Below are positions 1,201 to 18,772 of a stretch of DNA of 21,684 nucleotides, one piece after another. The notes under the pieces were generated by a model. The model was not told the DNA's origin. It was given only the letters and a program-made list of their open reading frames with translations, and ran no database searches. The DNA lies in the IMG/VR virus record IMGVR_UViG_3300007512_000228, positions 1-21,684 of that record. One strand, written 5' to 3'. The translations under genes were made by a program, and so were the position numbers. How positions within the stretch are numbered: position 1 is the stretch's first letter; every line of letters starts with the position of its first letter. The stretch comes from a virus.

Positions 1201-1818
1201 ATGGGACTAGGGCAACGAATACGCACAGCACGAACAGCGGCCTCCCTGACTCAGGGGGAGCTGGCTGACTGTGCAGGAATTACAACCGCAGCAATATCGA
1301 ACCTTGAAACCCGAGACCTTGGGCGCAGTACCCATGTCCTGGAAATGGCCGGTTGCCTCGGAGTCGATCCTAACTGGCTCGCGACCGGCACTGGCAATAT
1401 GAATATCCGTAAGCCGAATCAGGTGATCGAGGTGCCGCTGATCTCATGGGTCCAGGCCGGTGAATGGGCCGCTGCTGAAGACCCTTACGAGTTAGGGGAC
1501 GCAGAAACATGGGTTCCCTGCCCTAATGGCTGCTCAAAACTGAGTTACGCACTGACGGTGTCTGGTGAGTCGATGGAACCCGACTTCCGTGATGGCGACA
1601 TCATTATCGTTGATCCCAAAGTAGACGCCAGGCACGGTGATAACGTCATTGTGCGGGTTCACAATAACAACGAATGCACCTTTAAGCGGTTGGTTGTTGA
1701 GGGTAGTCGCGTTTACTTAAAAGCCGTCAATCCCCGCTGGCCTACTCAGATTATTGAAGTCCAGGGAGATGCCACCGTGTCCGGTGTCGTGGTCTCCCGC
1801 ATCTCCAACTTCCGATAA
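1201..1818 (+). CDS. cI: CI/LexA-type phage repressor with S24 autoprotease domain
   Basis: A 205-residue repressor. The N-terminus (about 4-62) is an XRE helix-turn-helix (SLTQGELADCAGITTAAISN). A linker leads to the peptidase S24 domain: the self-cleavage site is Ala86-Gly87 in SWVQAGEW, the nucleophile is Ser124 in VSGESMEP, and the general base is Lys162 in TFKRLVV. RecA-stimulated self-cleavage would induce the lytic cycle after DNA damage. The start is ATG 1201; an in-frame TGA lies at 1195, so no earlier start is possible in this frame, and GAGG sits too close to the ATG to be a normal ribosome site. A -10 at 1188-1193 suggests a leaderless message, as known for lambda cI from PRM. It is divergent from the Cro-like gene and heads the rightward operon. 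Confidence 0.93.
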   Translation: MGLGQRIRTARTAASLTQGELADCAGITTAAISNLETRDLGRSTHVLEMAGCLGVDPNWLATGTGNMNIRKPNQVIEVPLISWVQAGEWAAAEDPYELGDAETWVPCPNGCSKLSYALTVSGESMEPDFRDGDIIIVDPKVDARHGDNVIVRVHNNNECTFKRLVVEGSRVYLKAVNPRWPTQIIEVQGDATVSGVVVSRISNFR

Positions 1819-1830
1819 ACCTACCCCAGG

Positions 1831-1894
1831 CTCACGTTGTGAGTCTGTCGCGGCGTTACAGTTCTCTTGACTTGAGATTACACCGTGTTGTATT
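1831..1894 (+). promoter_or_regulatory. Probable promoter for the recombination operon, with upstream inverted repeat
   Basis: The gap between the repressor and the ATPase gene holds TTGACT (1867-1872), a 16-bp spacer and TGTATT (1889-1894), a plausible sigma70 promoter, followed by AGGAG seven bases before ATG 1933. The short inverted repeat CTCAC-gtt-GTGAG (1831-1843) lies upstream. It lacks a U-tract, so an operator is more likely than a terminator. Confidence 0.5.
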
Positions 1895-1932
1895 CTCATT
1901 CCACTACTGTGTATACGGACTAGGAGAACACT

Positions 1933-2628
1933 ATGGCATTCGAATTCATCAACGTCGCCGACGCGGTCAAGAAGACCGGTCTCAAGGTCATCCTCTACGG
2001 GCCAGCCGGCTCGGGAAAGACACGGACGTGTGCGACCACCGGCGAACCGACCCTAATCATCTCAGCTGAAGGTGGGCTGCTGTCCATCAAGGACGCACCC
2101 AAAAACATCACCGTCGCAGAGATTCATTCTCGGGCTGAGTTTGAGGAAGTCCTCAAGTACCTCGAGACAGAGGGTCCGCCGCCCTGGGTATGCATCGACA
2201 GTATCAGCGAGATCGCCGAGATCGTGCTCGCCGAAGAGATGGAGAAAACCAAGATGAAGATGCAAGCCTACGGAGAGCTCGGCATCGTCGTCACTGCCCT
2301 CGTCAAATCATTCCGCGATCTGCCCTGCCACGTCGTGATGACTTGCAAGCAAGCCAGGTCCAAGGACGACTCGCGAGGACAGATGCTTTACGAACCCGGC
2401 ATGCCGGGGCAGAAGCTCTCGGCCGCACTCCCGCATTACTTCGACATCGTCTCAGCGATGCGGGTATTCAAACACGACGACGAACTGCAGCACTGGATGC
2501 AGTGCAACCGGGACGAACAGTACGAAGCAAAGGATCGATCCGGTCGCCTGGACCTTTTCGAAACACCCAACCTTGCCTCGATCAAATCCAAGATCGAAGG
2601 CACAACCAAAAAAGCCAAAGCGGCATAG
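1933..2628 (+). CDS. Sak4-like phage recombination ATPase (AAA_24 nucleotide-binding protein)
   Basis: A 231-residue protein with Walker A GPAGSGKT at residues 23-30 and a Walker B-like strand WVCIDSISE at 85-93. The strand ISAEGGLLSIKD (43-54) and the conserved core order match the AAA_24 / Sak4 family, which are short RecA/Rad51-like cores that promote single-strand annealing together with an SSB. The Lys/Ala-rich C-terminus (KKAKAA) is typical. AGGAG precedes the ATG by seven bases. The next gene encodes a DUF669-type SSB-like protein eight bases downstream and a PD-(D/E)XK nuclease follows further on, so a phage recombination module is well supported. Whether it anneals strands itself is inferred from the family. 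Confidence 0.85.
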   Translation: MAFEFINVADAVKKTGLKVILYGPAGSGKTRTCATTGEPTLIISAEGGLLSIKDAPKNITVAEIHSRAEFEEVLKYLETEGPPPWVCIDSISEIAEIVLAEEMEKTKMKMQAYGELGIVVTALVKSFRDLPCHVVMTCKQARSKDDSRGQMLYEPGMPGQKLSAALPHYFDIVSAMRVFKHDDELQHWMQCNRDEQYEAKDRSGRLDLFETPNLASIKSKIEGTTKKAKAA

Positions 2629-2636
2629 GAGCACTT

Positions 2637-3059
2637 ATGGAACTTAACCTAAAAGTCGATGACTTCAACACCACTGATTCCTTCGACCCACTGCCAGAAG
2701 GATGGTACGGGGCAACGGTCGAAACCGAATCAGATGAGGTATCCCAGGCGGGAAACCAACAGCTGAAGCTGGCCTTTTCGATCGACGATAACGGTCGCCG
2801 CGTCAATGCCTGGTACAACACCGGACACCCCAAGGACAACGTCAAGGAGATCGCCTACAAGGAGCTGGCGCGTCTCGCAGAAGCCTGTGGTCTCGTGTCT
2901 GTCGGCCCGTCATCTGAGCTGATTGGCCGCAAATGCGAGATCAGGCTTGAGATCGACGGTAGCTATAACCGTGTCAAAGGCTACCGCGCCCTGCCCCGCT
3001 CAGCTCCGCCGGCAAGCAACGGTGCTAATGGTGCCAAGAGAAAGAACCCGTGGGACTGA
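2637..3059 (+). CDS. DUF669-type single-stranded DNA-binding-like protein
   Basis: A 140-residue protein. The N-terminal half (FDPLPEGWYGATVETESDEV, QLKLAFSIDDNGRRVNAWYN) and the middle EIAYKELARLAEACGL-x-ELIGRKCEIRLEI pattern fit the DUF669 family, found beside phage recombinases and considered SSB-like (OB-fold). The C-terminus is low complexity and ends KNPWD; it lacks the acidic SSB tail of E. coli SSB. AGGAG lies seven bases before ATG 2637. It directly follows the Sak4-like gene, consistent with an SSB partner that coats DNA for annealing. Its 3' end overlaps the small membrane-protein frame that starts at GTG 3050. Confidence 0.75.
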   Translation: MELNLKVDDFNTTDSFDPLPEGWYGATVETESDEVSQAGNQQLKLAFSIDDNGRRVNAWYNTGHPKDNVKEIAYKELARLAEACGLVSVGPSSELIGRKCEIRLEIDGSYNRVKGYRALPRSAPPASNGANGAKRKNPWD

Positions 3060-3172
3060 TCGACGAGCTCATCTGGTTGCTGATTCTTTTCATTGGCTGG
3101 GGCGTAGCACTCTGCGTCCCGGCCGCAATCATCGAATGGTGGACACATGACACGGAAGGAACCGAAACGTGA
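3050..3172 (+). CDS. Small single-pass membrane protein (40 aa)
   Basis: A 40-residue frame from GTG 3050 to TGA 3172: Met-Gly-Leu-Ile-Asp-Glu, then a hydrophobic segment LIWLLILFIGWGVALCVPAA (residues 7-26), then a polar tail rich in Thr and Glu. It overlaps the previous gene by 10 bp and the next by 26 bp, the overlap style seen throughout this operon. A purine-rich stretch (AAGAGAAAG) lies upstream. No family is recognised. Its presence among early genes in the repressor direction, followed by two lipoproteins, suggests an envelope function. The reading frame is short, so a chance ORF is possible, but the clean transmembrane profile supports it. Confidence 0.5.
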   Translation: MGLIDELIWLLILFIGWGVALCVPAAIIEWWTHDTEGTET

Positions 3173-3410
3173 GCTCGGGCGCGAGGCGGACCAGGTCTTC
3201 AAGGACATCCGAGCCGAGCTCGCGAGTTTGCTCGATAACGCGATTGAGAGCAGCGAGATGGTGCCGAGCCCTGACCTCTGGTCCGACTACGCGATGTGCT
3301 TTCACTTGTCGCTCCAGACGCTGAACGACCTAGCGAACGAGCTGAATGGTCTCTCTATCAAGGCTTTTGCAATCGAAGACGATGAAGTTAAAGCAACGAT
3401 TCCGAGATAA
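3147..3410 (+). CDS. Hypothetical protein, 87 aa
   Basis: A soluble, acidic 87-residue protein beginning MTRKEPKRELGREADQVFKD. The first half is helical and charged (RAELASLLDNAIESSEMVPS), and the second includes SLQTLNDLANELNGLSIKAF. No catalytic motif is visible and no family is recognised. It overlaps the membrane-peptide frame at its 5' end and lies 13 bp upstream of the first lipoprotein. Gene spacing and codon use resemble the neighbours, so it is probably a real small early gene of the recombination operon. Confidence 0.6.
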   Translation: MTRKEPKRELGREADQVFKDIRAELASLLDNAIESSEMVPSPDLWSDYAMCFHLSLQTLNDLANELNGLSIKAFAIEDDEVKATIPR

Positions 3411-3423
3411 CAGGAGAAAAGTG

Positions 3424-3585
3424 ATGAACAAGATTTTGACTTGGGAATTTATTTTGATTTTCTGGATCGTGCTGGCCGCGTCTTTCCTGATGACCGGCTG
3501 CGCGAGCCACATTTCCGCAACGGTCGGTGATCACACCGTCCGCAGCGGATTCCATCTCACACACGAGGCAAAGACAGATGACTGA
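3424..3585 (+). CDS. Small lipoprotein A (53 aa)
   Basis: A 53-residue precursor with a classic lipoprotein signal: MNKILTWEFILIFWIVLAAS followed by the lipobox LMTGC (Cys28). The mature part is only about 26 residues (CASHISATVGDHTVRSGFHL then a short charged tail). ATG 3424 is chosen because AGGAG lies seven bases upstream; GTG 3421 is less well spaced. The stop overlaps the start of a second short lipoprotein. Residue +2 is Ala, so outer-membrane sorting is expected in a Gram-negative host. Small phage lipoproteins of this kind include known superinfection-exclusion factors, but no specific family match is claimed. Confidence 0.7.
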   Translation: MNKILTWEFILIFWIVLAASFLMTGCASHISATVGDHTVRSGFHLTHEAKTDD

Positions 3586-3763
3586 ACTAGGCAAAAAATT
3601 CTGGACCTGGACCTACATGACGGGCGCGGTCGCCATCATTCTGGCGCAGGTGTTTCTGGTTGGCTGCGTTGAGGTTGGCAGCACCAGCGGTGGTGCAACC
3701 AGCGACGCTGACGCGACCGGCGGCTCGAGCACTCAAACGCAAGAACAGACGCCAGCTGAGTAA
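3578..3763 (+). CDS. Small lipoprotein B (61 aa)
   Basis: A 61-residue precursor overlapping lipoprotein A by 8 bp. The signal segment (MTGAVAIILAQVFLVGC) ends in lipobox LVGC with Cys at residue 31. The mature part is an unstructured Gly/Ser/Thr-rich tail (VEVGSTSGGATSDADATGG) ending in Gln/Glu-rich residues. The N-terminus before the hydrophobic stretch (MTELGKKFWTWTY) is longer than a minimal signal. Residue +2 is Val. A strong stem-loop follows 12 bp after the stop and would end the transcript. The overlap is end-to-end, not the nested or embedded Rz/Rz1 type, and lipoprotein A lacks a coiled coil, so a spanin pair is unlikely. Confidence 0.65.
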   Translation: MTELGKKFWTWTYMTGAVAIILAQVFLVGCVEVGSTSGGATSDADATGGSSTQTQEQTPAE

Positions 3764-3775
3764 GCGAATAGAAAT

Positions 3776-3823
3776 AACCCCGCTGCCATAACTACTCATC
3801 CTTGGATATGGCAGCGGGGTTTC
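3776..3823 (+). terminator. Strong stem-loop terminator or attenuator
   Basis: A perfect 15-bp inverted repeat (3776-3790 with 3807-3821; arm AACCCCGCTGCCATA) with a 16-base loop. The U-tract is short on the plus strand (UUUC) and similarly weak on the minus strand (UUAUUUC), so it may be bidirectional or act as an attenuator. It lies between lipoprotein B and the gene at 3837, and its right arm ends 15 bp before that ATG. Confidence 0.75.
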
Positions 3824-3836
3824 ACCAGGAGACAAC

Positions 3837-4082
3837 ATGAAACAAATATACGAATTACCGTCTGGCGTTTCAATCGAGTTTCAGTACGAGCCAGGCTGGG
3901 AGAAGTTCCGTATCGCATGGCAATCAGAAGAGTGGGGTCAACGCAAACCAGCATTTGGTCTGCACCGGCTGTATCAGCGAGCCTTGTTCATGGATGCACT
4001 TTCCAATGCTCATTCTGATTTCATTGGACTCGTGCGGCTCGAGCACCAAACGCAGTTGCAGCCACTGCATGGCTGTTGCTGA
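3837..4082 (+). CDS. Hypothetical protein, 81 aa
   Basis: An 81-residue protein starting MKQIYELPSGVSIEFQYEPG, with AGGAG seven bases before the ATG. The N-terminal half alternates hydrophobic and charged residues like a small beta-rich fold; the second half is helical and ends in Cys-Cys. No family is recognised. It is the first gene after the 3776-3823 stem-loop, so its expression may depend on readthrough. Confidence 0.6.
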   Translation: MKQIYELPSGVSIEFQYEPGWEKFRIAWQSEEWGQRKPAFGLHRLYQRALFMDALSNAHSDFIGLVRLEHQTQLQPLHGCC

Positions 4083-4092
4083 CTGATCAAAA

Positions 4093-4485
4093 ATGATCCC
4101 GTCGCCCGAAATCCACATGGAAAGGTCTGGTCACCTTGGTGGGCGGCGGGATCAGCGTGAGCTTTGGTGGGACTTTCATCACGATAACCCTGGCGTCTAC
4201 GCCCTCTTCAAACGCTACGCCCTCGAGATGATCAGCAAGGGCGTGAGGAAGAGCTCACCCTGGCTGATCGTGAATCGCATCAGGTGGGAAGTTGCCCTCA
4301 AAACAGTGGGCAGCGAATACAAGATACCTAACGAACACATCGCCTATTACTCCAGGCTATTCATGTTCGAGCACCCTGAGTACGGAAAATTCTTCAATAC
4401 CAAAACCATCAAGGGCGAGGACGACACCTGGTGGAAAAGGAGCAAGCATGGAATTAAACATTCCGCCGCCCGATCTAACGCTTAA
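4093..4485 (+). CDS. Conserved-looking phage hypothetical protein, 130 aa
   Basis: A 130-residue basic and aromatic-rich protein. Residues 24-50 (LWWDFHHDNPGVYALFKRYA) and 60-100 (WLIVNRIRWEVALKT, IPNEHIAYYSRLFMFEHPEY) form a compact, strongly patterned core that I recognise as a recurrent unannotated phage protein, but no function can be assigned. It could bind DNA or another replication protein, given its basic charge and its 38-bp overlap with the downstream nuclease gene. The start could be ATG 4093 or the in-frame ATG 4117; neither has a good ribosome site. Confidence 0.7.
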   Translation: MIPSPEIHMERSGHLGGRRDQRELWWDFHHDNPGVYALFKRYALEMISKGVRKSSPWLIVNRIRWEVALKTVGSEYKIPNEHIAYYSRLFMFEHPEYGKFFNTKTIKGEDDTWWKRSKHGIKHSAARSNA

Positions 4486-5617
4486 GGCACTCGACCAGGC
4501 GATCGTCGCGGCTAATCCGCCGAGCGTCAGAACCTACCTGCAATGTAACAACCTCGGCCAGGACTGCGAACGGCAAACCTGGTACAGCTGGCGCTGGGTA
4601 CTGCCGGCGATCTTTGATGCGGCGACCCTTCGCCGCTTTGAGGATGGTCACCTCTCTGAGGATCAGATGGCGAAGAGGATTCGGATGGTGCCTGGGGTTA
4701 AGCTGCAAACCGCATACGACGACGGCTCACAGTTCGAAGTCGAGGACTTCGCCGGACACGTACAGGGACACCTGGACGGGGTTATTGAGGGAGTCGCAGC
4801 AGCGCCCAAGACCATGCACGTCTGGGAGCACAAGTGCGTCCAGGACAAGAGCTTCAGGAAGCTCGACAAGCTCAAGCGGGAGCGCGGGGAGAAGGAGAGT
4901 CTCGAGCTCTGGAATGGCACCTACTACGGTCAGGCGCAGCTCTATATGGGTCTCACGGGCCTTAAACGCCACTATCTGACCGTTACGACCCCTGGGGGTA
5001 GGGACATCACCAGCTGCCGCACTGACTTCGATTCTGGGGCATTTGAGGCGCTGATAGCCAAGGCTCGCCGCGTATTCGAGGCAACCGAGCCGCTGCCACG
5101 CATATCAAAGAAGCCCGATTACTACCTCTGCCGCTGGTGCAACTTCTCTGAGACCTGCCACGGGGAGAAGGTTGCCCAGGTCAATTGCCGCACCTGCGCT
5201 CACTCAACGCCCGTAGAGGACCAGAATGCCGGCGCCCCTGGTAAGCCCCCTAGACGCGGCGCCTGGAAGTGTGAGCTCCATTCCAAGCTGATCACCGTCA
5301 AACGCCAGAAGGAAGGCTGCGGGGATCACATATTCATCCCGGCCCTGATCCCCTTCGCCGAGGTCGTGAAGTTCGACCCTGAAGAGAACCGTGCCGTGTA
5401 CGTCACCAGGAACACCCACAAGGCATTCGCTAACGCCAGCCGTAACGACTGGTCAGCTGATCCGCCCGTGTTCCGCAGCAAGGACTTGGCGCTGCTGGAC
5501 GAGCGTCTGCTGACGTCAGAGAGCGAGATGCTGGCCGCGTTCGGGAAGTTTGAGACAGCGACGCTGAAATCCGTAGACCCAGCCGACCCATTCGACGACC
5601 CAATACCACCCATATGA
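4448..5617 (+). CDS. RecB/Cas4-like PD-(D/E)XK nuclease with Cys cluster
   Basis: A 389-residue nuclease. The catalytic core reads GHLDG (Asp110), WEHK (Glu127-x-Lys129) and a QxxxY-type motif GQAQLY (Gln162, Tyr166), the RecB-family signature. C-X2-C-X5-C follows at C228, C231 and C237 (YLCRWCNFSETC), the arrangement that holds an iron-sulphur cluster with one N-terminal cysteine (C33 or C40) in Cas4 and AddB nucleases. A second Cys set (NCRTC at 247-250, then WKCELH and EGCGDH) looks like an added zinc ribbon. Its likely role is processing DNA ends for the Sak4-like/SSB-like recombination system. ATG 4448 is preferred because AAGGAG lies upstream; it overlaps the previous gene by 38 bp and the excisionase by 4 bp. 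Confidence 0.85.
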   Translation: MELNIPPPDLTLKALDQAIVAANPPSVRTYLQCNNLGQDCERQTWYSWRWVLPAIFDAATLRRFEDGHLSEDQMAKRIRMVPGVKLQTAYDDGSQFEVEDFAGHVQGHLDGVIEGVAAAPKTMHVWEHKCVQDKSFRKLDKLKRERGEKESLELWNGTYYGQAQLYMGLTGLKRHYLTVTTPGGRDITSCRTDFDSGAFEALIAKARRVFEATEPLPRISKKPDYYLCRWCNFSETCHGEKVAQVNCRTCAHSTPVEDQNAGAPGKPPRRGAWKCELHSKLITVKRQKEGCGDHIFIPALIPFAEVVKFDPEENRAVYVTRNTHKAFANASRNDWSADPPVFRSKDLALLDERLLTSESEMLAAFGKFETATLKSVDPADPFDDPIPPI

Positions 5618-7768: not shown

Positions 7769-7781
7769 TTCGACTAGTGTG

Positions 7782-8147
7782 TTAAGCAATCTCGATTTCC
7801 GAGAAGCCGACCAGGTCGCAAATGAAGTACTTGCCATCCTGTTCGACCAGGTCGCCGATGCTCAGTGAGCTGACGTTCTCCGCAATCTTGTGGATTCGGT
7901 CTTCGTCCTCTTCGTCACCGAATACCCCGTAGCGGTTGTGTACCAGGTACGCATCCTCGGGATCGTCGGCGTCGATGTCGGCGACGTGATCGTAATGAGC
8001 GAAGAACTCCGGTTCCCAGCTTTTTGAGCCGTAGGTCATCAGGTCGCGATGCACCCGCAGCGCCGGGAACTTATCCTCGGCTTCTGATCCGGCTCGGTTG
8101 ATCGCTCGGAAGTTTTTGAAGATCACTTGGTTCTGAAAAAGTTTCAT
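7782..8147 (-). CDS. Hypothetical acidic protein, 121 aa
   Basis: A 121-residue protein; ATG 8147 is chosen because AGGAG stands seven bases upstream, whereas the longer open frame has no support. It starts MKLFQNQVIFKNFRAINRAG, has a very acidic middle (DIDADDPEDAY, FGDEEDEDR) and ends VSSLSIGDLVEQDGKYFICD then LVGFSEIEIA. The closing S-x-S-x-GD-V...Y...D..GF-E pattern resembles a C-terminal motif seen in YodL-like proteins of mobile elements, a weak similarity only. It is the first gene of the leftward int operon beside the attachment region. Confidence 0.65.
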   Translation of the reverse strand: MKLFQNQVIFKNFRAINRAGSEAEDKFPALRVHRDLMTYGSKSWEPEFFAHYDHVADIDADDPEDAYLVHNRYGVFGDEEDEDRIHKIAENVSSLSIGDLVEQDGKYFICDLVGFSEIEIA

Positions 8148-9183: not shown

Positions 9184-9451
9184 CTAACACCTCACGTTTG
9201 CGCGGCTTGTCCGGCACTTCGGCCAACTCATTAATCTGCACAACCATGCCGCGAGGGATGTGCCACAATGATCCCCAATACGGGGATTTACCAGGAACAA
9301 AGGTCATCGCCAGGACGACCCACTCCCGAGACTTCTCAACCAGTAACCCGTAGGTACTAACCAGGCAGTCTTCTTTTTTTGTTTTCTCGAATTCTTTCCA
9401 CTCGCCCTCAATGAAAGCATCTATCCAGATAACCTCAACGAGCTTTTTCAC
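9149..9451 (-). CDS. Conserved-looking phage hypothetical protein, 100 aa (GTG start)
   Basis: A 100-residue protein from GTG 9451. Pattern: VEVIWIDAFIEGEWKEF, then CLVSTYGLLVEKSREWVVLA, MTFVPGKSPYWGSLWHIPRG and MVVQINEL. This alternating strand pattern and closing W-IPRG-MV are typical of small beta-barrel phage proteins often found near lysis or tail genes (roughly 'W-x-D...V.T.G.L......V..A......IP.G'). Function unknown. The start overlaps the end of the upstream lipoprotein gene by 17 bp. An in-frame ATG at M49 is too internal to be preferred. Confidence 0.65.
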   Translation of the reverse strand: MKKLVEVIWIDAFIEGEWKEFEKTKKEDCLVSTYGLLVEKSREWVVLAMTFVPGKSPYWGSLWHIPRGMVVQINELAEVPDKPRKREVLDEHREPPKNNL

Positions 9452-9866
9452 GTCGGTTCAGCTTGAACGGGCTGGGCATCAGCCAACCGAGCACGATGAA
9501 CGCAAGAGCGCATAGCCCTATCCACTTCGCGGATGACGCAAACAGCACTGCCAGTGCTCCCCAACCGCTTGTCGCCTGTTCCGGCGCACTCGGCATCGAA
9601 GCGTCAGGGATCACTGCAGCAGTAAGTCCGCCGGCCGCGCTTGCGGCCGCTACTGCTGGCAGTGGTCCAGCGACCAGGCTGGCCGCTCCACCAGTCACCA
9701 GCGCAGTTCCGGTCACCCAGCCAGCTTCTTTTAGCGACGCGCAGCCTGGGAGAGCAACCACGACCAGGAGGAGGGTCATGGTAAGGAGAACCAGGCTGCG
9801 ACGTCTTGTCTTAATCAGGTGCTCGACGTACTGATCGAGCCCTTTGAAGGGATCAATCACATTCAA
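9435..9866 (-). CDS. Membrane lipoprotein-like protein, 143 aa
   Basis: Starts TTG 9866 (or GTG 9860), reading MNVIDPFKGLDQYVEHLIKT then a hydrophobic segment LVLLTMTLLLVVVALPGC with lipobox-like LPGC near residue 42. A Gly/Ala-rich low-complexity middle (GGAASLVAGPLPAVAAASAAG) is followed by a second membrane helix WIGLCALAFIVLGWLMPSPF and a basic tail. It could be a lipoprotein if started at the internal ATG 9779, but that start lacks a ribosome site. It belongs to a run of small envelope proteins (9435-10782) resembling a lysis cassette. No known family is claimed. Confidence 0.6.
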   Translation of the reverse strand: MNVIDPFKGLDQYVEHLIKTRRRSLVLLTMTLLLVVVALPGCASLKEAGWVTGTALVTGGAASLVAGPLPAVAAASAAGGLTAAVIPDASMPSAPEQATSGWGALAVLFASSAKWIGLCALAFIVLGWLMPSPFKLNRREKAR

Positions 9867-17230: not shown

Positions 17231-18076
17231 CTACTTCTCCGGGTTTTCGGCCTCCGGCTTTTTTCCGTTCTTTTCTGTTACCTCCTCGGTCGGCAAATCT
17301 TTAAAGTCTTCCCAGTTTTCCCACTCGATTGGTCTGTACTTCCACCGCGCCAATGGCGCCGGGGCATACTTCAAAAACCCTCCAGGGAGATATCTTTTAT
17401 GGTACTCAGCTGACCAGGGCTGGTAGTTCATCAAACCGATCTGGCGGACAGGACCATCAACCTCATCGCGCATCAGAGAAAGAGAAGCATTGGCGACCGG
17501 ACCGAAGAGCTGGTTTTTTCCGAATCCCTGACGGTTAGGAATGTATCGAGACCAATCCTGTGCTTTAGGTTGTGTGTAATCTTTTTGAAGGATGAAGCTT
17601 TTGGGGCTTAGCGTTACCTGTCCGCCGCCCCCGCCACCGCCCCCGCCTCCGCCTCCTCCGCCGCCATTGTCTTTTCCGCCTCCGCCATGATAATCGTCGT
17701 GAGACGTGGTGTCCTTACCCTTGAAGTAATCGTCATAGGCTTTTGTCCCTGGCTTTACCTTAGTGCCGCCAGGATATTTACCTTGCAAAAGAGCTTTGTC
17801 TTCTGCGGCATGGAAGCGCCCGAAATCCGCTTTGGTGAATCTTCCGCCTTCGGCTTTTTTGATCCAGTATTCCGCTTGTGCGGCTGGTGACATACCGTTG
17901 TGGTCTGCAAAACCAGACATGTCGCCACCTTTCTGGTGGGTGTCAATCATGCGCCATGCATTGGCAAGATCACCGCGTGAATTTACGTAAGACTCAAACT
18001 TAGAGTCAGGAACATTCTTCATGTAATTACGCAAATTACGGTTGTACGCTGCGTTTTTGTTTCCGCCAAAACTCAT
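17231..18076 (-). CDS. Putative virion protein with a 15-residue glycine linker, 281 aa
   Basis: Two parts separated by an uninterrupted run of 15 glycines (residues 138-152; codons 17665-17621). The N-terminal half (MSFGGNKNAAYNRNLRNYMK, then a helical region with WRMIDTHQKGGDMSGFADHN) is hydrophilic. The C-terminal half is Pro/aromatic-rich (GFLKYAPAPLARWKYRPIEW) and ends in a charged tail. The linker suggests two independently folding parts. It overlaps the upstream gene by ATGA. It is probably a minor virion protein by position; no family is recognised. Confidence 0.55.
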   Translation of the reverse strand: MSFGGNKNAAYNRNLRNYMKNVPDSKFESYVNSRGDLANAWRMIDTHQKGGDMSGFADHNGMSPAAQAEYWIKKAEGGRFTKADFGRFHAAEDKALLQGKYPGGTKVKPGTKAYDDYFKGKDTTSHDDYHGGGGKDNGGGGGGGGGGGGGGGQVTLSPKSFILQKDYTQPKAQDWSRYIPNRQGFGKNQLFGPVANASLSLMRDEVDGPVRQIGLMNYQPWSAEYHKRYLPGGFLKYAPAPLARWKYRPIEWENWEDFKDLPTEEVTEKNGKKPEAENPEK

Positions 18077-18564
18077 TTTTCTTCCCTCAGTTCTTTCGTT
18101 AGAACTTGGTAGCTAGATTTCCAATCAGGTAACATTTTTTCAAAACCTTTTCTTGCCCACGCTTCTACTGAGTCACACCCCTGGTTCAGCGCGAATTGTT
18201 CAATCTCTTTGAACAGGTAGTACCACTTTTTCAGGCCGCGCCCACCGAGCGATAACACCCGCAAAATCCGCTTGCGCGGATAGGTAATAATCTCAGTAAT
18301 CACAGACGCAACAATTGCGGTGTCCTGCACTACGACCCACAGCTGCATGTCGCCCATGCATAGCGGCGCGTAAACGTCCTCTGCTAAGAGCTCACCTTCG
18401 CTGTGGTCTACTGCGGCCTCAATGTGCGGAAGTACATAAGCCCAGATTGCGGCCACCTTATCAGGTGGTACGAAAAAACCTTTAAAGTTTCGTCCAGCTG
18501 GTTCCGTCGAACCAGTAGATTCCTTCTCCGGTACTTCCTGGGTTCCAGTCCGTTCCATCGGCAT
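18073..18564 (-). CDS. GNAT-like phage protein, 163 aa
   Basis: Residues 31-160 fit the acetyltransferase-fold proteins common beside podovirus tail genes: FFVPPDKVAAIWAYVLPHIE, MQLWVVVQDTAIVASVITEI, then YPRKRILRVLSLGGRGLKKW and VEAWARKGFEKMLPDW. The L-R-V-L-S-L-GG-RGL loop replaces the usual acetyl-CoA site Q/R-x-x-G-x-G/A, so catalysis is uncertain. ATG 18564 (or 18558) overlaps the upstream 96-aa gene by 83 bp; GGGAG lies nine bases before it. No shorter in-frame start is available near the domain boundary. Confidence 0.6.
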   Translation of the reverse strand: MPMERTGTQEVPEKESTGSTEPAGRNFKGFFVPPDKVAAIWAYVLPHIEAAVDHSEGELLAEDVYAPLCMGDMQLWVVVQDTAIVASVITEIITYPRKRILRVLSLGGRGLKKWYYLFKEIEQFALNQGCDSVEAWARKGFEKMLPDWKSSYQVLTKELREEK

Positions 18565-18772
18565 ACCTGATGTCTCCCTTCCTTGGGTTGTCCGGTGTTA
18601 CGTGTGTTGGTTCCAGGCGGAATAACGCCTGGTTTAAAACAATACTTGAAAGACGCCGCAGCTCCGTCACGACGTACTGTGCTAGATCGCGCTGATCAGG
18701 CGGCAGCATAGGCGTCGGACCAGGCTCAAACCGTGTTACCGATTTGACCTTCTTATCCGCGTGAATCGCCAT
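18482..18772 (-). CDS. Small virion-region protein, 96 aa
   Basis: A 96-residue protein starting MAIHADKKVKSVTRFEPGPT, with a helix (QYVVTELRRLSSIVLNQALF) and an ending typical of phage fibre or adaptor modules: P-R-KGDIRYADGTDWNPGSTG then EGIYWFDGTSWTKL. This G-x-YWFDGT-SW motif also occurs in tail-fibre proteins. The start overlaps the upstream stop by one base. Its 3' end overlaps the GNAT-like gene. It may link tail and fibre, or be a minor tail protein. Confidence 0.65.
   Translation of the reverse strand: MAIHADKKVKSVTRFEPGPTPMLPPDQRDLAQYVVTELRRLSSIVLNQALFRLEPTHVTPDNPRKGDIRYADGTDWNPGSTGEGIYWFDGTSWTKL

Follow-up and report, generated by a model that had tools for sequence, protein, structure and literature searches.

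Recurrent pairing of two small predicted lipoproteins in uncultivated phages and a possible role in superinfection exclusion

Why should an uncultivated phage carry two very short lipoprotein genes among its recombination genes, and do they belong to the operon in which they lie? These questions are raised by the IMG/VR record IMGVR_UViG_3300007512_000228, and the window analysed here is that whole contig of 21,684 bases. A preliminary description of this DNA had placed small envelope open reading frames (ORFs) at 3050-3763, behind a cI-type repressor gene and inside a recombination operon. This placement was borne out by matches of the flanking genes to lambda CI and 434 repressor, phrog_124 and phrog_1990. 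We found that two of the small genes, here called lip1 and lip2, recur together in four genomic contexts among metagenome phage contigs. Our favoured explanation, put forward tentatively, is that they encode a portable, translationally coupled pair of outer-membrane lipoproteins for superinfection exclusion or receptor inactivation. The two genes are:

3424..3585, plus strand: lip1, a 53-amino acid (aa) prelipoprotein with the lipobox MTGC
3578..3763, plus strand: lip2, a 61-aa prelipoprotein with the lipobox LVGC

The ATG of lip1 at 3424 is preceded by AGGAG, and the mature part of the protein has 28 aa. The start of lip2 overlaps the end of lip1 by 8 nucleotides (nt), and its mature part of 32 aa begins with C-V-E-V-G and continues in an acidic tail rich in S, T, D and Q (net charge −5). 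Across the members of the family, mature lip1 has 25-34 residues, often of the form C-[AS]-...-TVGD-T-T-Y-S-[TS], and mature lip2 has 28-37 residues, with C-[VI]-[ED]-[VI]-G followed by an acidic tail (net charge −4 to −9). The GC of the lipobox is invariant in all 21 distinct lip1 sequences, as is the cysteine in all 20 distinct lip2 sequences. Both proteins thus have the N-terminal signal and lipobox cysteine by which bacterial lipoproteins are recognised, and lipidation is predicted. By eye, three kinds of lip2 tail can be told apart: DADTTST-like, DIDxDNT-like and one with two additional cysteines, close together, that is found in seven of the 20 distinct sequences. The lip2 of contig L108 has nearly the same signal part as that of the window and a different tail, which suggests tail exchange.

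The ratio of nonsynonymous to synonymous substitution rates (dN/dS) was 0.13-0.35 for lip1 in seven of the eight pairs compared, the eighth pair being identical. For lip2 it was 0.11-0.44 in five of eight pairs; two further values (0.84 and 0.28) rest on four changes or fewer, and in one pair dS was saturated. These ratios support the view that lip1 and lip2 are genuine genes under selection.

Relatives were collected from viral contigs searched with the exonuclease encoded downstream of the pair and with its alignment, and further carriers were found via orfB (the gene upstream of lip1), via the hairpin behind lip2 and via a lip2 DNA motif. Ten of the contigs gathered with the exonuclease, the window among them, encode a lip1-like lipoprotein in the corresponding position, nine of them with lip2. 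In L024 and L026, whose exonucleases are 59% identical, orfB is followed by the exonuclease with no lipoproteins. No upstream lipoproteins were seen in 29 more distant relatives, in a scan whose upstream reach varied, that did not take in L050 and L051 and that could miss a lipoprotein inside a longer frame. The pair is present in L136, L140 and L142, which were found via orfB and have exonucleases about 45% identical; its range thus extends beyond the closest relatives.

Viral contigs were also searched with a degenerate DNA motif encoding G-C-V-E-V-G-G, with which mature lip2 begins, and 61 stretches matched. Nineteen of these contain lip2, and lip1 was present in all 18 that have readable upstream DNA. 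Ten of the 19 are carriers that the exonuclease, orfB and hairpin searches had missed (L088, L089, L099, L100, L108, L112, L114, L116, L123 and L132), and the other 42 stretches, which failed the lip2 criteria, served as the control set. With all searches pooled and the window included, lip1 comes before lip2 in all 26 contigs where the upstream DNA can be read, a count that excludes L003 (near-identical to the window phage), L123 (starts at lip2), L138 (ends after lip1) and L017 (lip1 only), and in which the identical lipoproteins of L089, L112 and L114 are hardly three independent cases. The overlap is 8 nt in 22 of the 26, 4 nt in L016 and 14 nt in L116 and L132, lengths that depend on the start codons we picked. 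In the control set, small lipobox ORFs occurred at 0.031 per kb of strand, which for ORFs ending in a 60-nt interval gives a chance expectation of about 0.002 per locus.

The four contexts in which the genes were found are as follows.

Context I, recombination operon: Sak4-SSB-orfA-orfB-lip1-lip2 to exonuclease, in 18 contigs (the window, L003, L008-L011, L013-L016, L068, L098, L115, L136, L137, L139, L140 and L142)
Context II, replication operon: four contigs (L088, L100, L108 and L123)
Context III, virion operon: L089, L112 and L114, with virion proteins 39-65% identical to those of the window
Context IV, island: L099, L116 and L132, with a zinc-ribbon-like ORF (by inspection), lip1 and lip2, the larger neighbours being on the other strand

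Some of the context I genes are not visible in every contig, and L098, L115, L137 and L139 were assigned by orfB; in L068, Sak4 is 50% and SSB 30% identical to the window's proteins. By inspection, context II has initiator-like genes upstream in L088, L100 and L108, and downstream a Hjc-like gene in L100 and L123 or a RusA-like gene in L108. Context III is probably a single lineage, because its three sets of lipoproteins are identical. In L089 the pair lies between homologues of the window genes 18482-18772 and 18073-18564, and lip1 starts on the stop codon of the first gene. At the same junction in the window, the stop of the first gene directly abuts the homologous part of the second, with neither pair nor gap. 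An inserted unit that is absent from a relative at the same junction is what is expected of a moron.

In all three context IV contigs, a GC-rich stem and T-run of terminator type lie upstream, followed by promoter-like hexamers of the TTGAC and TA.A.T types 17 or 18 nt apart; this arrangement is not established for the window. The aligned upstream DNA of the three has a mean column identity of 81%. Between the −35 and −10 of this putative promoter, an inverted repeat, ACACC-N4-GGTGT, is perhaps an operator. It is found exactly once in L099 and once in L132, with no exact match in L116, and so gives no pointer to a shared repressor. An integrase was detected in 12 of 26 records searched (11 above the cut-off), and ten of these 12 carry lip1-lip2. 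Taken together, the comparisons support the view that lip1-lip2 behaves as an accessory unit that moves as a pair between unrelated positions.

The surroundings of the pair in the window consist of the following features.

1201..1818, plus strand: CI/LexA-type repressor, matching lambda CI, 434 repressor and LexA chains
1867..1896, plus strand: promoter-like site TTGACT-18-TATTCT, behind the repressor gene and ahead of Sak4, of a kind no commoner than expected from shuffles
1933..2628, plus strand: Sak4-like single-strand annealing protein (phrog_124, expectation value (E) 4.7e-48)
2637..3059, plus strand: DUF669/SSB-like protein, a neighbour in the recombination operon
3050..3172, plus strand: orfA, a 40-aa membrane peptide with a GTG start and one hydrophobic stretch (single helix)
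3147..3410, plus strand: orfB, an 87-aa protein with two helices in the predicted structure
3776..3821, plus strand: hairpin 1, with a 15-bp GC-rich stem, starting 12 nt past lip2, of a covarying hairpin family
3837..4082, plus strand: an 81-aa ORF (MKQIYELP...), carried by the hairpin 1 cassette and lacking in L003, a near-identical phage
4094..4154, plus strand: hairpin 2, a second member of the hairpin family, preceding the phrog_13625 gene and the exonuclease
4448..5617, plus strand: Cas4-domain exonuclease (phrog_1990, E 4e-67)

The order on the plus strand is thus repressor, Sak4, SSB-like gene, four small genes, hairpin, 81-aa ORF, hairpin, phrog_13625 gene, exonuclease and an AlpA-like gene. 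A Phage_integrase-family integrase is encoded on the opposite strand, and the window phage is therefore probably temperate.

We also followed the two other small genes. The first 10 nt of orfA lie within the SSB-like gene, and its last 26 nt within orfB. orfB sits between orfA and lip1 without overlapping lip1, and is modelled as a plain two-helix hairpin with a predicted local distance difference test score (pLDDT) of 92. In profile searches, orfB was found in 16 of 16 context I loci, and it stays with the recombination operon even without the lipoproteins (L024 and L026); orfA was clear in 12 of the 16, weak in L136, L139 and L140 and not found in L016. Among the ten loci of contexts II-IV, orfB was found in none, and orfA in none on the strand of the pair, with one weak match (E 7e-5) on the opposite strand of L100. 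By these comparisons, orfA and orfB are outside the mobile unit, which is lip1-lip2. The preliminary description had seen a cluster of three overlapping envelope genes forming one module: orfA, lip1 and lip2 are indeed real, but it left out orfB between them, and of the module it is lip1-lip2 that is retained as a mobile accessory pair, orfA not having been found on the pair's strand in the other contexts.

The same description had the cluster closed by a strong stem-loop. Hairpin 1 is strong (−30.8 kcal/mol, z = −9.0 against 200 shuffles), but genes on the same strand continue beyond it to the exonuclease and the AlpA-like gene. In most context I contigs a strong hairpin follows lip2 or the next small genes. 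Twelve copies, taken from 11 contigs, were aligned after their stems had been trimmed by hand, a step that favours the stem: pairing holds in 97% of stem cells, against 38-56% in slid controls, and nine of 15 pairs change on both sides. Four of five measures of covariation were reached by none of 500 shuffles, and the number of pair types by 103 of 500. A covariance model built from these copies found new ones 3-6 nt after lip2 in L142, L136, L139 and L140 and in L100 of context II, at E 2.1e-9 or better, where unrelated GC-rich hairpins picked by the DNA pattern score down to E 4e-7. At E up to 1, the model found none in L088, L089, L099, L108, L114, L116, L123 and L132, nor in L098 and L115, where little DNA is left beyond lip2. 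The hairpin DNA pattern picked out 25 stretches in viral contigs, six of them in known contigs, one in a new carrier of the pair (L068) and 18 in which our scan detected no pair. No Rfam family reached its gathering threshold for the hairpin in 11 sources.

The phage L003, which in the aligned stretches shares about 99.8% identity with the window, is without the 327 bases at window 3767-4093 (L003 7834-7836), which hold hairpin 1 and the 81-aa ORF; therefore a hairpin-led cassette was gained or lost there. A second indel, about 514 extra bases in L003 (11525-12039; window ~7775-7783), lies just beyond the integrase. The strongly covarying hairpin is a conserved element separate from the lip1-lip2 pair, and we infer that it is a processing or cassette-boundary element. 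In L013 (4828-5913), L014 (3848-5119) and L015 (3792-5063), the lipoprotein module and the hairpin are separated by a gene that by inspection is DNA methyltransferase-like, which again points to cassettes coming and going. Behind lip2, ten of the 23 contigs screened (L009, L010, L011, L013-L015, L098, L108, L115 and L123) encode another short hydrophobic peptide, of 25-42 aa; the window does not. Small minus-strand ORFs of L010 (11844-12206) and L026 (6463-6762) have a GGGC-type segment, which we take to be reminiscent of IscA/HesB iron-sulphur proteins; the L010 ORF matches phrog_17776, of function not known.

What the two proteins might do was approached through family searches. With Pfam and PHROGs, none of the window's four small genes had an acceptable match, the best being Blr for lip1 (17.7 bits where the cut-off is 27, E 0.0025), and for lip1 and lip2 no family match reaching a curated cut-off was seen among the libraries searched. 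The PHROG matched most often was phrog_1119, Cor, in seven of 32 members (best E 1.7e-4). Pfam New_glue was matched by four of nine lip2 (best E 1.8e-4) on the low-complexity tail. The Sie-like phrog_8545 was a weak match of three members (best E 0.0077). With the PADLOC anti-phage models, the 32 members gave a single match, to Cmr1 at E 0.015, which we judged to be chance.

The likeness to Cor was followed further. From small alignments, hhalign gave matches of 10 and 15 columns, confined to the lipobox. With alignments of 20 and 21 sequences, 26 columns of lip2 (probability 57%) and 16 columns of lip1 (87%) were aligned, and for lip2 the match reaches past the lipobox into a common C-[ST]-G-T stretch. 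This stretch, as found in Cor of N15 and HK022, belongs to the cysteine type of lip2 tail, and in L016, L089, L108 and L136 it follows the same ten residues. The best BLASTP match was that of L016 lip2 to N15 Cor (13 of 31 residues identical). Against a hidden Markov model (HMM) of six Cor proteins, the scores of six of the seven cysteine-type lip2 were matched by only 0-14 of 300 shuffles of the mature part, and nine of 21 lip1 stood out as well (1-13 of 300), counts that are not probabilities since the members are related and shuffling preserves composition but no order effects close to the anchor. The other 13 lip2 did not stand out, and for the window's lip1, 45 of 300 shuffles scored as high. 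Part of the lip1/lip2 family may thus be a shortened relative of Cor, or may have converged on it. Membership of the Cor family itself was rejected, given a mature domain about half as long, scores of at most 16.4 bits and further cysteines missing in most members.

How, then, could such a pair exclude other phages? Translational coupling at the short overlap would yield lip1 and lip2 together and keep both in step. Both would be exported and lipidated at the lipobox cysteine, most likely ending in the outer membrane with short periplasmic or surface parts of 25-37 residues. There the pair would act jointly on an outer-membrane receptor or entry site, so that related phages would no longer be taken up by infected or lysogenic cells or by debris left after lysis, in the manner of Llp, Cor and Rtp45 but with two lipoproteins. 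lip1 is the partner with the more constant mature part, and lip2, with one of its three tail types, would give specificity. In a bolder form, which we consider doubtful, this would be a new two-lipoprotein exclusion module, perhaps a split and shortened relative of Cor. A constant lip1 would be joined, across the 8-nt overlap, to exchangeable acidic lip2 tails that set which receptor is blocked; the module would move among recombination, replication, virion and stand-alone positions, in several cases in temperate phages, and the covarying hairpin would bound many carriers and mark the gain and loss of cassettes.

As for timing, placement in an early operon suggests that the pair acts during infection, and the layout of context IV would allow action in a lysogen. 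The preliminary description had proposed expression in the lysogen from the cI direction. This idea is reasonable because in a Salmonella prophage a gene behind cI is described as transcribed from the cI promoter (PMC7067206). Within the operon region of the window, promoter-like sites numbered three against a shuffle mean of 2.2, not above chance, and a repressor operator common to the cro-cI and cI-Sak4 intergenic regions was not significant at any of five lengths (22-38 of 100 shuffles as good).

Several observations weigh against an exclusion function. The commonest place of the pair, the recombination operon, suggests early lytic rather than lysogenic expression, and known exclusion lipoproteins are reported to adjoin receptor-binding or structural genes. 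Pairing is not fully obligate, as L017 has lip1 without lip2, and in L011 the two genes are 146 nt apart. A weak correlation between lip1 and lip2 in the distances of their mature parts (15 pairs, Mantel r 0.28, 20 of 5000 permutations) speaks for the model, but may stem from shared descent. lip2 looks unstructured; the model of lip1 has a pLDDT of 68.9 and was set aside. Past the lipobox, 14 of the 20 lip2 have no resemblance to Cor, the window's included (125 of 300 shuffles as high), and the Cor-profile scores are low throughout, in members that are mutually related. The mature parts of 25-37 residues compare with 58-62, including the cysteine, in six Cor proteins. A further cysteine, as needed for the disulfide reported for Llp and Cor, occurs in none of the 21 distinct lip1 and only in the seven cysteine-type lip2.

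The alternative that survives best, although we think it unlikely, is that the pair tunes the host envelope (lipoprotein sorting, lipopolysaccharide transport, an envelope-stress sensor or division) and so aids replication or lysogen fitness. Its positions in recombination and replication operons would fit this, as would the membrane peptides that accompany it, orfA and the one after lip2. Weak matches also point this way: single lip1 matches to LptM (E 0.073) and Blr (0.0025 in Pfam, 0.0086 in NCBIfam), and NCBIfam matches to the host lipoprotein family YgdI/YgdR (DUF903) in seven of 32 members (best E 7.8e-5, 22.5 bits) and to the lipoprotein family NF038104 in four of 32 (best E 3.3e-5). 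However, where bits are known the scores lie well below the curated cut-offs, and the LptM and Blr matches fall on the signal peptide. Five of the ten lip1 listed for YgdI/YgdR NF033216 scored 14.3-22.5 bits against a cut-off of 42; hhalign with the full-length profile aligned 28 columns (probability 74%) and with the mature parts alone gave nothing, and homology of lip1 to this family was rejected. Moreover, that the pair moves alone into an island equipped with a promoter-like site is in keeping with an accessory function that has its own phenotype.

The tandem, translationally coupled and regular arrangement of two small lipoproteins also recalls entericidin A/B, a lipoprotein pair of toxin-antidote style, in which case one protein would harm the envelope and the other protect it. 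We consider this improbable: by eye lip1 and lip2 have no likeness of paralogues, and lip1 occurs alone in L017. Still less probably, the proteins, though lipoproteins, serve as minor components of the virion or of DNA entry. The pair does lie inside the virion operon in context III, but the window's virion operon does without it at that junction, and in 22 of 28 carrier contigs the pair or lip2 is in a recombination or replication operon. Least probable of all is a two-component spanin or other lysis function, since the likeness in short overlapping genes that include a lipoprotein, and weak matches to Rz-like PHROGs, O_Spanin_T7 (E 0.018) and P2 Rz1 (E 0.03), stand against a lipobox in both proteins of all members listed, no partner such as the inner-membrane i-spanin that works with an o-spanin according to PMC6139136, mature parts judged too short to bridge the periplasm, genes mostly in recombination or replication operons and a separate lipobox candidate at 9435-9866. 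This last ORF, on the minus strand of the window next to virion genes, encodes a conserved protein of about 143 aa that has an LPGC lipobox in its interior and a hydrophobic stretch at its C-terminus; it has only a weak match, to phrog_19883 (E 0.0032; function not known), and is a possible unimolecular spanin.

Returning to lip1-lip2, we searched for the pair outside the metagenome phage contigs. Searches with tblastn against named phages, using the window's lip1 and lip2 and the lip2 of L016, L142 and L116, gave no convincing relative, and one plasmid search with the L108 pair gave no match. A scan of genome contigs gave two loci, and lip2 had no match in either genome. Among 398 genomes from the phylum of the Rhodobacteraceae metagenome-assembled genome (MAG), the lip2 profile, which recovered six of six carriers as a positive control, matched once (E 1.5e-4), within a frame of 608 aa that lacks the lip2 motif. 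L024 (DJHJ01000022.1), binned in an Acidobacteriia MAG, has the same ORFs as viral contig L026 in its first 3 kb, and the bin may misname the host. No description of such a lipoprotein pair was found in the open-licence PMC literature, among the matches listed, as far as titles and the beginnings of abstracts go.

Genes of about 55 codons are easily omitted or left as hypothetical, and here two of them form a unit that is conserved and mobile. Should the pair block receptors, the Llp/Cor/Rtp45 principle would extend to uncultivated phages in a two-lipoprotein form, with testable pairing and tail exchange. Even with another function, the pair and the hairpin would serve as markers for accessory cassettes inside early phage operons.

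Among known systems, the context IV island is like phage morons, with neighbours on the other strand and a terminator followed by a promoter-like site; unlike a moron, the context I pair lies inside a run of same-strand genes and has no detected promoter of its own. Cor (of N15, HK022 and T1; phrog_1119, NF047972) is likewise a small phage lipoprotein with a lipobox, but it is one protein only, its mature part is larger and it has two more cysteines. Lpp021 and Lpp010 of the mEpimmI coliphages, found by lipobox search and described in PMC11893012 as excluding phages, are single lipoproteins within the structural gene cluster, and the likeness to them is one of description. The preliminary description had pointed out that small phage lipoproteins block receptors, and for this there are established precedents: Rtp45 (about 6 kDa) is reported to act on LptDE, and Llp on FhuA. 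Searches with lip1 and lip2 profiles in the PDB found no Llp or Rtp45 chain: lip2 gave nothing, and lip1 gave two matches on the signal peptide. Llp of T5 and Rtp45 of Rtp, likened to lip1 and lip2 by description, are reported as single proteins with solved receptor complexes, and such small lipoproteins at the periplasmic face of an outer-membrane receptor are the working model that we propose for the pair.

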